NCBI RefSeq assembly: GCF_039536245.1
Contig: NZ_BAAAYN010000014.1
Span: forward strand, 1-64,000
Direction of reading: 5' to 3'
Source: Cryptosporangium minutisporangium
Lineage (GTDB): Bacteria; Actinomycetota; Actinomycetes; Mycobacteriales; Cryptosporangiaceae
DNA: 64,000 bases
Below the pieces are notes generated by a model, which was given only the letters and a program-made list of their open reading frames with translations, did not search any database and had not been told where the DNA came from. Shown here piece by piece: positions 51,407 to 56,694 of this stretch (within the stretch, counting starts at the first letter, position 1; every line of letters begins with the position of its first letter). The position numbers were made by a program, and so were the translations under genes.

Positions 51407-51925
51407 CTACCAGTCGGTGCCGGCCTTCTCGACGGCCGTGACCTCCGGGCCGTGCTCGGTCCAGCGGTAGCGAGTCATGCGGGTCAGCCGCGGTGCGTAG
51501 ACGTGGATGCTCACCGCCGGCTCGGCGCCGTCGTTGACCACCTCGTGCAGGTGGTGCGGGCCGAAGACCCGCTGCTCGGACGCCCGGAGCGTCCGGCTGC
51601 GCAGCTGCGGCGGCGCGCTCGACGGCGTCCGGACGGTGTCTTCACGGAGCTGTCCGCGGACGACGGCGAATGCGCCGGCGGAGCCACCGTGGTCGTGCAG
51701 GCCGGTTCGCTGGCCGGGCCACCAGCTCAGCAGCCACGCCTCCACCGCGACGCCGTCCAGGGACGCGTCGACCTCCGCGTCGACGTCGAGGCGGCCGTAC
51801 CAGCGCCGGTCGACGTCGTACCGGACGCGGGAGGCCCAGTCGACGTCGGCGACCAGTCGTTGCAGCAGGGACCCGAGGCGGAGGCCGGGCAGGGTTGGGG
51901 CTGGCAGGGTGTCGTTGATCGTCAT
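51407..51925 (-). CDS. Cysteine dioxygenase (cupin)
   Basis: A 172-residue type I cysteine dioxygenase that oxidises cysteine to cysteine sulfinate with Fe(II) and O2. The cupin iron ligands are visible: the pair of His in TGLHDHGGSAGAF and the His in GPHHLHEVVN; SIHVYAPRLTRMTRY holds the conserved Tyr region. The start is ATG 51925 with CGGAGAG seven bases upstream. A leader ORF with two cysteines and a promoter palindrome lie upstream, so expression probably responds to cysteine. Confidence 0.93.
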   Translation of the reverse strand: MTINDTLPAPTLPGLRLGSLLQRLVADVDWASRVRYDVDRRWYGRLDVDAEVDASLDGVAVEAWLLSWWPGQRTGLHDHGGSAGAFAVVRGQLREDTVRTPSSAPPQLRSRTLRASEQRVFGPHHLHEVVNDGAEPAVSIHVYAPRLTRMTRYRWTEHGPEVTAVEKAGTDW

Positions 51926-51965
51926 CGTGCTCTCCGGGTCGTGGCGATCTCGGGCGGTCGGGGGA

Positions 51966-52046
51966 TCAGGCAACCGACCCGCGACATCGCGGCACCCCGC
52001 CGGACGGCAGGCGCCTCGGCAGTCCCGTCGAGCACTTCGTTCCCAT
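51966..52046 (-). CDS. Putative Cys-containing leader peptide of cysteine dioxygenase
   Basis: ATG 52044-52046 opens a 26-residue ORF (stop TGA at 51966-51968) ending 40 bases before the cysteine dioxygenase start. It carries cysteines at positions 5 and 21, the second in an R-C-R context, and several Arg/Gly/Pro. A -10-like TTTACT ends just 6 bases before the ATG, so it would be nearly leaderless. This resembles the leaderless cysteine-responsive attenuator ORFs described in mycobacteria. Confidence 0.5.
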   Translation of the reverse strand: MGTKCSTGLPRRLPSGGVPRCRGSVA

Positions 52047-52068
52047 GGATCCAGTAAAGCACATAAGC

Positions 52069-52085
52069 CCTACCAGTTTGATAGG
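52069..52085 (-). promoter_or_regulatory. 17-bp palindromic operator candidate upstream of cysteine dioxygenase
   Basis: On the minus strand CCTATCA-AAC-TGGTAGG has 7-base arms with one mismatch, in the -35 region of the promoter inferred for the leader ORF. The size suits an Rrf2- or TetR-type dimer; the regulator is unknown. Confidence 0.4.
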
Positions 52086-52141: not shown

Positions 52142-52510
52142 TTAGTTAGGAGACGTACCGGCCGCGGCGAGCTCGACGGCGTGGTCGAGCGAGTTTGCGG
52201 TCGGGAGGACAGTGGAGAGGCCGGAGATCGCGAACACCGCCTCGACGTCCGGGCGCAGGCCACACACGACGAGAGCACCACCGACACCCATGACCCACCG
52301 GGCGTGCGTCGCGACCGTTCCGAGGCCGGTCGAGTCACAGAACGTGACGCCGCTCAGGTCGAGGACGAGGTTCTCGCGACCCTCGTTACGCAACGCATCG
52401 AGGGATTGGCGCAGGGTGCCGGACGTGGCAATGTCGAGTTCTCCGGAGAGCCGGAGCACCCCGACGTTCCCGGACTCCCCGGCACTGCTCACCACGACGG
52501 ACAAGTTCAT
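52142..52510 (-). CDS. STAS-domain anti-sigma factor antagonist
   Basis: A 122-residue SpoIIAA/RsbV-like protein. It has LRLSGELDIATSGTLRQSL, LVLDLSGVTFCDSTGLGTV with the phosphorylatable Ser in CDSTGLG, and GLRPDVEAVFAISGL. It is the substrate class dephosphorylated by PP2C partners such as the divergently transcribed 52559 gene (only 48 bases between starts). Such antagonists sequester anti-sigma kinases and free a SigB/SigF-type factor. The start is ATG 52510. Confidence 0.93.
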   Translation of the reverse strand: MNLSVVVSSAGESGNVGVLRLSGELDIATSGTLRQSLDALRNEGRENLVLDLSGVTFCDSTGLGTVATHARWVMGVGGALVVCGLRPDVEAVFAISGLSTVLPTANSLDHAVELAAAGTSPN

Positions 52511-52558: not shown

Positions 52559-53938
52559 ATGACCGACGCCGAGAGCGCAGCCTCCGCCGGCGCGCCGGCC
52601 CGTTCGCAGGTGAACGGCCTGATCCCGCCCAACGAGGCTGAGCGACTGCGGGCGGTCCGCCGGTACGACATCCTCGATACGCCCCCCGACGGGGCGTTCG
52701 ACCGCATTGCGGCACTCGCCGCACGCATCTTCGAGGTTCCCGTCGCCACGGTGACGATCGTGGACGAAGACCGGATCTGGTTCAAGGCCACCCATGGCGT
52801 CGAGGTGACCCAGATAGGCCGTGACCCGGGACTCTGTGCTTCTGCAATTCTCATCGATGCCCCCACCGCGATCGAGGACGCGACCCTCGACCCCGTCGCA
52901 TTGAACAACCCATTGGTCCGTGGCGAGTTCGGCCTGCGCTACTACGCCGCTGCGCCGATCACGACCAGCGACGGCTACCACCTCGGCACGGTGAACGTCA
53001 TCGACCGGGTGCCGCGGCAAACCACCGCGGAGGAGTTGACGACGCTCCAGGACCTCGCGTCGATCGTCGTGGACGAGCTGGAGCTCCGGCTGTCCGCGAT
53101 CCGCGAGGTGCGGCTGGAACGGCGTCGGCGGGAAGAGGTGCAACGCTCCAAGGGTCAGGTCGAGGAGGTCGCCCGCACGCTGCAGCAGACGCTGCTGCCG
53201 CCGCGGATGCCGCAAGTGCCCGGGATGGAACTCTCGGCGTTCTACCACGCGGCACCGCTGCAGGAGGTCGGCGGCGACTTCTACGACGTCTTCCCGCTGG
53301 GCGGACGGCGGTGGGCGATCTCGATCGGCGACGTCTCCGGCAAGGGCGTGCAGGCCGCGGCGCTCACGTCGCTCGCCCGGTACGCGCTGCGCGGCGCGGC
53401 GATCCAGACGTCGGACCCGTCGATGGTGATGGCCGCGCTGAACGAGACGATCGTCGCCGACCAGGCCGGGCAGGAGGTGCCGCGGTACTGCACCGCGGTG
53501 TTCTGCGTGATCGAGCAGACCGAGAGCGGTTCAGCGCAGGTGCGGCTCGCGAACGGCGGGCACCCGCCTGCCGTGGTGTGCCGGGCCGACGGCAGCATCG
53601 AGCGGCTCACCGAGTCCGGTCCGATGCTCGGCTGGCTGCCGGACAGCCGGTACCCGACGCTGGAGACGCTGCTCGGGCCCGGTGACGGGTTGCTGTTCTA
53701 CACCGACGGCATCACCGACGCGCGCCGCTACGGACAGCGCTTCGGCGAGGGACGGCTGGCGGCGGCGCTCGCGGATCGTCCGCACAACAACGCGAAGTCG
53801 CTGGTGCGGTGGGTGCGGAATCTGATGAACGAGTTCGACCCGCCCGGTTACGACGACGTCGCCGTGATCTCGGTCAGCATCGAGCCCCAGACCATCACCC
53901 AACGCCAGCTCACCGCAGTCTGGTCAGCGGGAGACTAG
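52559..53938 (+). CDS. GAF-sensing PP2C (SpoIIE-type) phosphatase
   Basis: A 459-residue regulator. Residues ~25-185 form a GAF domain (RYDILDTPPDGAFDRIAALAARIFEVPVATVTIVDEDRIWFKATHG), then a coiled-coil helix (RLERRRREEVQRSKGQVEEVARTLQQTLLP) and a SpoIIE/PP2C catalytic domain with the metal Asp motifs VGGDFYDVFPL, ISIGDVSGKG, LANGGHPP and YDDVAVI. It probably dephosphorylates the adjacent STAS protein. The start is ATG 52559 behind GAGGAGGG. It converges with osaC with a 4-bp overlap of ends. Confidence 0.93.
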   Translation: MTDAESAASAGAPARSQVNGLIPPNEAERLRAVRRYDILDTPPDGAFDRIAALAARIFEVPVATVTIVDEDRIWFKATHGVEVTQIGRDPGLCASAILIDAPTAIEDATLDPVALNNPLVRGEFGLRYYAAAPITTSDGYHLGTVNVIDRVPRQTTAEELTTLQDLASIVVDELELRLSAIREVRLERRRREEVQRSKGQVEEVARTLQQTLLPPRMPQVPGMELSAFYHAAPLQEVGGDFYDVFPLGGRRWAISIGDVSGKGVQAAALTSLARYALRGAAIQTSDPSMVMAALNETIVADQAGQEVPRYCTAVFCVIEQTESGSAQVRLANGGHPPAVVCRADGSIERLTESGPMLGWLPDSRYPTLETLLGPGDGLLFYTDGITDARRYGQRFGEGRLAAALADRPHNNAKSLVRWVRNLMNEFDPPGYDDVAVISVSIEPQTITQRQLTAVWSAGD

Positions 53939-56328
53939 GGCGCCGCGCGGAGCGCCAGTATTGCGAGGTCGTCTCGGAGCGGGCCGTCGCCGAAATCGGT
54001 GGCGGCGGTCCGCAGGCGGGCGGCGATGTCGGCGGCGGAGAGGCCGCCGACGCCGGCCAGCACCTCCGCCACACCCTCCTCGCCGAACTGCAGGTCACCA
54101 CGGCGCCGCTCGGTCACCCCGTCGGTGTAGAACACCAGCGCGTCACCGCGCCCGAGATCGACCGTGACCTCTTCGACTTCGATGTGGTCGGTCAACCCGG
54201 CCGCCATCCCACCGATCCCGACCGGCTCGGCGCCACCGCCCGCGCGCACCAGGAACGGCAGCGGATGCCCGGCGAGGCAGAGCCGCAGCCGCAGCCCGCC
54301 CTCCCGCCGCTCGGCCAGCGCGGCCGCGACCGTGCAGAACACCGTCTGCCCGGTGGCCGGCCCGCCACCCTCCCGCACCAGATCGGCTTCCTCCACGAGC
54401 GCCCGGTTCAGCGCGGCCAGCGCGTACGGCAGGTCGCGCCCCTCCCGCGCCAGCGTGCGCAGTACGTCGCGCACCATGCCGGTCACCGACGCGGCCTGCG
54501 GTCCCTTGCCGCAGACGTCGCCGATCGCCAGCAGCCACCGGTCGTCGCCGAGCGGCAGGACGTCGTAGAAGTCGCCACCGACCTCGTTGCTCTCCCCGGT
54601 CGGCCGGTACTGCGCCGCGAACTCCAGGCCCTCAGCGACCGGCAGCGAGGCCGGGAGCAGCGCGCTCTGCAGCGCCTCGGCCACCGAGTCACGCTCGGAG
54701 TAGAGCCGCGCGTTGTCGACCGACAGCGCCGCCCGCCGAGCCAGGTCGACCGCGATCGCGACCTCCTCGGACGTGTGCCGACGTCCGGGCGGATCACCGA
54801 TCGACATCGTGCCGACGACCTCGCGCCGTGCGGTGAGCGGAAGCACCAATCCCGACAGCCCACCGGTCAGCGGCGTCGCCGCGTGGGTGACCGTGGCGGC
54901 CCGGATCCGCTCCCGGAGTACGGCGCCCTCCGGCGCGAGGAACGCGTCCTCCAGTTCGGGGACGCCGCGCTCGTCGTTGTGGACGGCGACGACCAGCTCC
55001 GGATCGCCGGCGTCGTCGAGCGTGTGGATCACGCACCACTCGCCCAGCCGCGGCACGCAGAGCTGCGCGACCAGCGCAAGCGTCAGGTCGACGTCGAGCG
55101 AGGAGGCGAGCAGCTCGCTGGCGTCGGCGAGGAACGCCAGGTCGCCGCGGCGGGTCTGCTCGGTGTCGCGGAGCCGGGCGGCGTCCAGGCTCACCGCGAG
55201 ACGTTCGGCGGCCAGCAGCGCGAAGACCGCGTCGGCCGACCGGAACAGGCTGCCGGCCGGGAGACCCAGTTCGAGCCGGCCGCGGATCGGCGGGCTCGAC
55301 GGGAGCGCCACCGAGAGCGCGACCCCGGCACCGGCGGTGGCCAGTGCCCCGGTCGGCGGCAGCAGGTCGGCGTTGCGTGGCCGCGGCGGATCGTCCGGCC
55401 AGAGCCGCACCGGCGGGTCGATCGGGTCGTCGGTGATCCCGACGGAGGCCAGTGCCCGGACGCCCGAGCCCTCGTCCACCCAGAGGACGCCGAACGCCGC
55501 ACCGGTGACCTCGCAGACCCGGTAGAGGATCTCCTGGGCCAGCTCGGTGGCTTCGAGCTCGTGCACCACCCGATCGGTGAGGTACGTCAGCCAGCCTGCC
55601 GCCTCAGCGGCGGGAACCACCGCCGCGGTGCGACCGGCGACCGGGCGGCGCAGCTGCTTCGGCGCCGGGATCGGGGACGACTCGGCCGCCGCCGGCCCCG
55701 TGGGCACCGGCGCGGACGACGGCCGGATCGTGAGCCCACCGGCGGAGACGCCGCCCGCCGGTACCGTCGCGCCCCGGCGTCCGCGGATCTTTCGCCCCAG
55801 GCCGACGCCCGGCTCGCGGCGCAGCCCCCAGCGGGGTTCGGCCGACTCGACCGGTTCGACCGGGACGTCCGCCTGCGGGGTCGGGACCGACCCGGCGAGC
55901 GTCACCACCGGGTCGTCGACGTCGAGGCGGAACCAGACCGATTTGCCCTGCCGTCCGTACGCGACGCCCCACTCGGACGCCAGCGAGTCGACCAGGTGCA
56001 GGCCCCGGCCGCCCTCGGCCAGCATCGGCGGCGGGAGCGAGGGGCCCAGCACGGCACGGCTGCCGTCGGTGACCCGGACCGTGATGCTGGCCGGGTCGCC
56101 GACGACCTCGATCTGCATGGCGGTACCGGCGTGGACCACGGCGTTCGTCGAGAGTTCGGTGGTCAGCAACGCGACCTCGTCGGCGATGGAGCCGAGTCCG
56201 CACTCCTCCACCACGTCGCGGGCCAGGGCGCGGGCGAGTGCGGGCGAGCGGGCGTCGCCCGGCAGCGGTGCACGCCGTGTCACCGCTGCGGAACCCGCCG
56301 GTCCCGAAGAACTCATCTGATGACCCAT
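53935..56328 (-). CDS. osaC: OsaC-like multidomain anti-sigma regulator (HATPase-GAF-GAF-PP2C)
   Basis: A 797-residue cytosolic protein with an RsbW-like HATPase_c domain (about 15-130, LLTTELSTNAVVHAG, EGGRGLHLVDSLASEWG), a Pro/Arg-rich linker, two GAF domains (about 240-390 and 410-560) and a SpoIIE PP2C domain (565-797, VGGDFYDVLPL, IGDVCGKGPQAASV, CLAGHPLP, FYTDGVTERR). Anti-sigma kinase and phosphatase parts are in one chain, as in Streptomyces OsaC. It is divergent from osaA with osaB behind, which matches the Streptomyces osaC-osaA-osaB order. The start is ATG 56328 with GAGGTGA upstream; a later ATG at 56316 is possible. Confidence 0.87.
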   Translation of the reverse strand: MGHQMSSSGPAGSAAVTRRAPLPGDARSPALARALARDVVEECGLGSIADEVALLTTELSTNAVVHAGTAMQIEVVGDPASITVRVTDGSRAVLGPSLPPPMLAEGGRGLHLVDSLASEWGVAYGRQGKSVWFRLDVDDPVVTLAGSVPTPQADVPVEPVESAEPRWGLRREPGVGLGRKIRGRRGATVPAGGVSAGGLTIRPSSAPVPTGPAAAESSPIPAPKQLRRPVAGRTAAVVPAAEAAGWLTYLTDRVVHELEATELAQEILYRVCEVTGAAFGVLWVDEGSGVRALASVGITDDPIDPPVRLWPDDPPRPRNADLLPPTGALATAGAGVALSVALPSSPPIRGRLELGLPAGSLFRSADAVFALLAAERLAVSLDAARLRDTEQTRRGDLAFLADASELLASSLDVDLTLALVAQLCVPRLGEWCVIHTLDDAGDPELVVAVHNDERGVPELEDAFLAPEGAVLRERIRAATVTHAATPLTGGLSGLVLPLTARREVVGTMSIGDPPGRRHTSEEVAIAVDLARRAALSVDNARLYSERDSVAEALQSALLPASLPVAEGLEFAAQYRPTGESNEVGGDFYDVLPLGDDRWLLAIGDVCGKGPQAASVTGMVRDVLRTLAREGRDLPYALAALNRALVEEADLVREGGGPATGQTVFCTVAAALAERREGGLRLRLCLAGHPLPFLVRAGGGAEPVGIGGMAAGLTDHIEVEEVTVDLGRGDALVFYTDGVTERRRGDLQFGEEGVAEVLAGVGGLSAADIAARLRTAATDFGDGPLRDDLAILALRAAP

Positions 56329-56694
56329 CCGCTGGCTCACCTCGCGCCGCTCGTCCTGCGCCGCCCGTCCACTGCCCCAGCCGTCGCCTGCACCCCCGCC
56401 CGGGACAGCTCGGCCGGCGCCGAACTCGAGGGAGGACCGACCGTTCGCCCGGTACAGGCCGGACGCGTTCGGGAAGTCCCGGACAGACCCTAGCGTCCAG
56501 GGGCCAACCGCTGCAGAGTCCCGCACGATTCCGGTTGCTGTCCGACACTGTTGAGCACACGGACCGCGTGTGGGGTCCGATCGGGGGTACCGATCGGATC
56601 CGACGCTCCACGGTGCGTGATACGCAAAGATGGGGGGGTGCGCGCGACACCGGAGCATTCGGGGTCACGGACACCCGGCGAGATGAGGCACACG
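56329..56694. promoter_or_regulatory. osaC-osaA divergent control region
   Basis: These 366 bases hold no convincing gene. The inverted repeat TCCGATCGG-n5-CCGATCGGA at 56576-56598 is 96 bases before osaA and is a candidate regulator site. The osaA frame is open upstream from 56551 but the residues are not protein-like. Confidence 0.45.

Follow-up and report, generated by a model that had tools for sequence, protein, structure and literature searches.

A conserved cysteine-codon leader and a probable organosulfur operator precede a predicted cysteine dioxygenase gene in Cryptosporangium

The window analyzed here, a 64,000-nucleotide stretch of the Cryptosporangium minutisporangium genome, carries on the minus strand a gene (51407..51925, 172 aa) whose product is a predicted cysteine dioxygenase (CDO), a member of the PF05995 (CDO_I) family. 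It matches the Pfam profile with an E-value of 3.7e-18 and a score of 66.1 bits, against a cut-off of 23; in the alignment the cupin metal ligands H77, H79 and H127 are invariant, and the solved chains nearest to its profile, 8qfr and 8qfl, are annotated cysteine dioxygenases. At residue 45, within a YxR-like motif, this enzyme has Arg where some relatives have Gln or another residue, and the difference may be a sign of different thiol substrates.

Read on the minus strand, the region upstream of CDO consists of a STAS-domain gene (52142-52510), the 17-bp palindrome CCTATCAAACTGGTAGG (52069..52085), 10 bp, the -10 hexamer TTTACT (52053..52058), 6 bp, a leader ORF of 26 codons, MGTKCSTGLPRRLPSGGVPRCRGSVA (51966..52046, with its ATG at 52046 and its stop codon ending at 51966), and 40 nt leading to the CDO ATG at 51925, ahead of which lies GGAGAG. 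The leader contains two Cys codons, TGC at codon 5 (52032..52034) and TGT at codon 21 (51984..51986), the latter within the decamer GCGATGTCGC (51981-51990). A TGC directly before TTTACT makes this an extended -10, and since 6 nt separate the hexamer from the leader ATG, transcription from it would give a leaderless transcript. Counted from the leader ATG, the palindrome occupies roughly -39 to -23; its exact sequence occurs only once in the 9.2-Mb genome. A preliminary description had reported a 26-codon ORF with Cys codons 5 and 21 ending 40 bases before the dioxygenase, a -10-like hexamer 6 bases from its ATG and a palindrome overlapping the promoter; read on the minus strand, all of its coordinates and counts hold, the palindrome (52085-52069) ending 10 nt upstream of the hexamer (52058-52053). 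The STAS gene adjoins a GAF-SpoIIE phosphatase gene and a further large ORF with SpoIIE-like sequence (spans 52562-53938, plus strand, and 53935-56658, minus strand), surroundings that resemble a partner-switch neighbourhood, and the STAS-CDO order is retained within the genus.

We compared the locus across the four sequenced species of the genus (the window's own, G000, and G001, G002 and G003). The operator palindrome, TTATGTG-TTTACTG, the ATG and AGTGCT, which includes the Cys5 TGC, are identical in all four, the only differences being one C/T position within the operator and a handful of flanking bases. Separate leaders, orthologous in G001 and G002, read MGTKCSTGLPRRLPSGGVPRCRGSVA, MGQECFLGQAGLARHAPSGGVPRCRKSVV and MSKECFAGRCR; their indels sit between Cys5 and the RCR motif, and the decamer that holds the codon for the RCR cysteine does not vary. 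G003 lacks the sequence that separates leader from enzyme, and MGQECLVRPLSGLRLG continues in frame into CDO (L004, around 1440-1510), so that the leader start MGQEC now appears to head the enzyme; an alternative CDO start in this species is a GTG at codon 7 with AGGAG in front. Of 397 genomes in the order, only five contain the promoter-start pattern TATGTGNTTTACTGNNNNCATG, each of them in a single copy upstream of CDO, and one of the five, G053, belongs to a different family. Another ATG in the frame, located 18 nt before this one at 52064 (MCFTGS-MGTKC...), was rejected as the leader start, because the same frame reads ATG TGA in G001 and the -10 hexamer would lie inside the ORF.

Unrelated leaders with Cys near their ends precede CDO in other actinobacterial families, for example ...FWAGRRADSFDETCC, ...RRSAVDLLRVASALCPAA, ...CLSCAQCCCR and ...GGLTRCR. 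A short ORF with Cys in its last five codons was present at 19 of 21 CDO loci from other families, compared with 6.3 ± 2.0 in dinucleotide shuffles, and the same criterion was satisfied by 53 of 79 named loci (Micromonosporaceae, Geodermatophilaceae and others, which are not phylogenetically independent) compared with 23.9 ± 4.4 after shuffling. The distance from leader stop to CDO start is about 38-50 nt in many families. Among ten leaders scanned against NCBIfam, that of L007 (Goekera type, Geodermatophilaceae) scored exactly at the NF042934 cut-off and that of L030 below it, and the window leader had no match to NF042934 or NF042933 at E <= 1. Plasmid records that include CDO have no genes annotated at that place and offer no depositor's view of leaders. 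The preliminary description had named a lack of Cys codon conservation in relatives as an outcome that would count against the leader; the opposite is seen, with Cys5 kept in four of four species, RCR in all three separate leaders, and Cys-ending leaders at the same place in other families. Thus, the leader ORF is very probably real.

The palindrome represents a site family, CCTAYY-N5-RRTAGG. When no more than one mismatch is allowed, 51 of 109 CDO upstream regions contain such a site; these belong mainly to Micromonosporaceae and the genus of the window. Once near-identical downstream sequences had been collapsed, 24 of the 44 distinct sites were followed by a -10 hexamer (TANNNT or TTYACT) starting exactly 10 bp after the site, whereas 0.4 were expected from shuffles. 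This fixed spacing, together with the conserved and specific promoter-start element, refutes the idea that a chance ORF and a chance palindrome without function happen to lie side by side, even though a short Cys-containing ORF is by itself common in GC-rich DNA and appears, under the loosest criterion, in about one third of shuffled upstream regions.

Operator and leader are distributed separately. Micromonospora CDO genes have the operator and no Cys leader between operator and gene, Geodermatophilaceae mostly have a leader without the operator, and the two occur together in the window's genus, in Planosporangium and in one Dactylosporangium genome; neither part, therefore, is indispensable. 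Several Actinoplanes-type genomes (L045, L049, L058, L078 and L086) carry a Cys leader, for example MQRQGIPLTARLAIDLARCASARCPR, about 100 nt upstream of the operator. The frequency of operator-only CDO promoters in Micromonospora would suit a view in which control lies in the operator-promoter alone, the leader being a passive upstream ORF or a relic that merely delivers ribosomes or is being lost. The loss of the separate leader by fusion in G003 and the lack of general enrichment of pairing between leader and ribosome-binding site (described below) would fit as well. However, Cys5 and RCR survive indels within the genus, and Cys-ending leaders recur in many families and also before the gene of the candidate regulator, so that we consider a passive leader distinctly improbable.

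To delineate the genes that share the operator, the pattern CCTAYYNANNYNRTAGG was searched in ten genomes, yielding 34 distinct sites compared with eight hits of a reversed-pattern control. Twenty-six of the 34 adjoin genes for CDO, SsuA, SsuD-like proteins, LLM monooxygenases, a sulfite-dehydrogenase-like protein of the molybdopterin type or ABC transporters, or genes with Cys leaders; two of the others were assigned by identical site sequence only, and six lie elsewhere. The SsuA-family sulfonate-binding proteins were called with NCBIfam TIGR01728, above its cut-off, and the SsuD-like alkanesulfonate monooxygenases score 430-465 bits with TIGR03565, below its cut-off of 518. In the window's genome, only the CDO site is exact, and weaker sites precede an LLM monooxygenase gene and the gene of a winged-helix regulator. 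In L130, an operator-like site lies between an AIR-synthase-like gene (with a SelD-like start, judged by eye) and an F420-dependent oxidoreductase-like gene. We regard the palindrome as a separate part of the control region and, with high probability, a genuine operator of an organosulfur regulon.

The list of operator-linked genes is close to that of genes raised in Gordonia NB4-1Y grown on sulfonates rather than MgSO4, where CDO, a sulfite-oxidase-like oxidoreductase, sulfurtransferases and a sulfonate transporter were all higher (PMC7661421). Although Gordonia belongs to a different family, this overlap supports a place for CDO in the actinobacterial starvation response and suggests that CDO belongs to a sulfur-hunger response rather than to simple cysteine disposal. 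The cysteine-sensing leader put forward in the preliminary description is supported in part, by the conservation of its Cys codons, but that account missed the role of the palindrome, a probable operator common to ssu genes and to CDO promoters that lack the leader ORF.

What might bind the operator is suggested by gene neighbourhoods. An orphan OmpR-type winged-helix protein (PF00486), which lacks a receiver domain, is encoded behind an operator and a Cys leader (MSDAWNLTGRLYVDLGRASSARCRRS and its orthologues) in four of four genus members, and this leader resembles, by eye, the NF042934 type. In Micromonospora, two winged-helix copies lie downstream of CDO on the same strand, in the CDO operon; in Catenuloplanes, a winged-helix gene follows CDO; and in Nucisporomicrobium, one sits between a monooxygenase gene and an operator. 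The family has a variable N-terminal region and is often present in two copies per genome (L148:4207-5100 and L211 in the window's genome; L173:4025-6109 in Micromonospora). By guilt by association, the orphan OmpR-type protein is the best candidate for binding the operator, and we offer it as a lead. OmpR-type proteins usually bind direct repeats, and the site is an inverted repeat with the T-N11-A spacing of LysR boxes, which would also suit a LysR protein. Two species of the genus (L123 and L140; G001 and G003) do have an operator-like site immediately ahead of a LysR-family gene and of a DUF3604-like gene that diverges from it. We ranked LysR below the OmpR-type candidate, since no linkage of the LysR gene to CDO or ssu genes was seen in the loci examined.

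Taken together, these observations lead us to propose, with a probability of roughly 0.6, that the CDO upstream region is a two-tier sulfur-starvation control unit, in which an organosulfur-starvation promoter is combined with a leader whose Cys codons increase CDO translation whenever cysteine runs short. In the first tier, a transcription factor, putatively the orphan OmpR-type protein, itself encoded downstream of such an operator, would bind the 17-bp palindrome, which substitutes for a -35 box at 10 bp before the -10 hexamer, and would switch CDO jointly with ssuA, ssuD, other flavin monooxygenase genes and the sulfite-dehydrogenase-like gene. In the second tier, transcription would begin at or next to the leader ATG, so that a ribosome would translate the leader first. 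The segment around Cys5 would pair with the CDO ribosome-binding site; when cysteinyl-tRNA is scarce, the ribosome would stall at Cys5, this pairing would be blocked and CDO translation would rise. The enzyme would then turn thiol sulfur into sulfinate and sulfite for reassimilation. A point against this scheme is that known Cys leaders have their Cys codons concentrated near the stop codon and not at codon 5.

The pairing step draws on RNA folding. With the three separate leaders as its only input, RNAalifold pairs GUGCUC around Cys5 (GTGCTC, 52030..52035, minus strand) with GAGCAC between the CDO ribosome-binding site and the start codon, and CGGG with CCGG, so that the predicted partner of the Cys5 region is the CDO ribosome-binding region GGAGAGCAC (51927..51935, minus strand); this fold is suggestive only. 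When Cys5 is blocked in the models, the accessibility of the ribosome-binding site increases from 0.22 to 0.79 in the window, from 0.00 to 0.29 in G002 and from 0.12 to 0.26 in G001. Individual z-scores for pairing between leader and ribosome-binding site are -2.2 in G002, -3.9 in G001 and only -0.8 (not significant) in the window, and across 29 loci such pairing is not stronger than in shuffled sequences (mean z -0.45 ± 0.24), a comparison that leaves general masking of the ribosome-binding site by leaders across families unsupported. Since the pairing is unenriched over the 29 loci and non-significant in the window, we put forward the interaction of Cys5 with the ribosome-binding site as a conjecture. 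No terminator hairpin with a T run was found between leader and CDO, and the locus thus departs from a classical transcription attenuator. The only terminator-like site is the operator palindrome, upstream of the leader, and its role as an intrinsic terminator was ruled out because it lies upstream of the promoter start. An Rfam search of the leader region gave only sub-threshold chance matches.

The direction of control requires separate consideration. Known Cys leaders precede genes for making cysteine or taking up sulfur (PMC4633059, PMC1262725), and ribosome stalling under cysteine limitation is thought to switch those genes on. Such starvation-on control looks wrong for a cysteine-oxidizing enzyme until the operator is considered. 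Catabolic logic would instead have CDO made only when cysteine is plentiful: without cysteine, a ribosome stalled at Cys5 would leave the RNA uncovered, with Rho-dependent termination or masking of the ribosome-binding site as the result, and with cysteine, a ribosome reaching the leader stop would couple translation to CDO. Such a scheme suits an enzyme that removes cysteine; the stop-to-start distance in many families is compatible with coupling; and a Rho-dependent mechanism has been suggested for Cys leaders in actinobacteria (PMC1262725). However, both the Gordonia transcriptome and the presence of this operator at sulfonate-use genes speak for induction when sulfur is limiting, and in the fold predicted for the window, blocking Cys5 frees the ribosome-binding site, whereas a ribosome at the leader stop leaves its accessibility at 0.22. 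We therefore consider the catabolic scheme unlikely and, on balance, favor a switch that turns CDO on when cysteine is scarce. The apparent paradox of sensing cysteine before making the enzyme that destroys it fades if CDO is taken as a sulfur-starvation gene.

More tentatively, and at slightly less than even odds, this reading might be extended beyond the locus: in Micromonosporaceae and the window's family, the orphan OmpR-type regulator would run an organosulfur-starvation regulon (sulfonate uptake, desulfonation, sulfite dehydrogenase and thiol dioxygenase) through CCTAYY-N5-RRTAGG, and in the window's genus Cys-codon leaders would additionally gate the regulator and CDO, making CDO a means of sulfur salvage under cysteine limitation. 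If the two-tier reading is true, one gene combines a codon-level cysteine sensor with a DNA operator, and bacterial CDO, usually treated as a disposal enzyme, is recast as a member of a sulfur-scavenging regulon. The analysis also yields an operator motif and a candidate regulator, together with a putative leader family that escapes the annotation profiles.

Among known systems, the closest analogy is with the mycobacterial polycysteine leaders of the Ms5788A type, in which, in the accounts of Canestrari et al. 2020 given in PMC9031893 and PMC13236596, ribosome speed at Cys codons is proposed to set downstream translation. As far as these accounts describe them, such leaders share with the window a short Cys-coding ORF that precedes a sulfur gene and has a near-leaderless start, which in the window is predicted from the distance of six nt between -10 and ATG. 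The window leader differs from them in having single Cys codons at positions 5 and 21 and no consecutive Cys run near the stop, in preceding a cysteine-oxidizing enzyme and in being joined to a palindromic operator. The mycobacterial attenuator analogy drawn in the preliminary description is sound in the sense of "works like", with the reservation that the window leader has isolated Cys codons and no match to either NCBIfam leader profile. The "putative leader peptide" family NF042934 (cis_reg_atten) occupies the same position before CDO in Geodermatophilaceae (L007), and the window leader falls outside it. In the LEU element of actinobacterial leuA (PMC1262725), regulatory codons base-pair with the Shine-Dalgarno sequence of the gene downstream, as is predicted here; the window differs in that the amino acid is cysteine and not leucine, no pseudoknot was found and the predicted pairing comes from three sequences only. 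Finally, CysR and SsuR of Corynebacterium resemble the proposed first tier as actinobacterial regulators that act on the transcription of sulfonate and sulfur genes, but CysR is described as ROK-type in PMC2580772, whereas the window-type site is CCTAYY-N5-RRTAGG and its candidate regulator is an orphan OmpR-type winged-helix protein. Cys leaders as such are already known; the gene context, the leader sequence and the operator described here are new.
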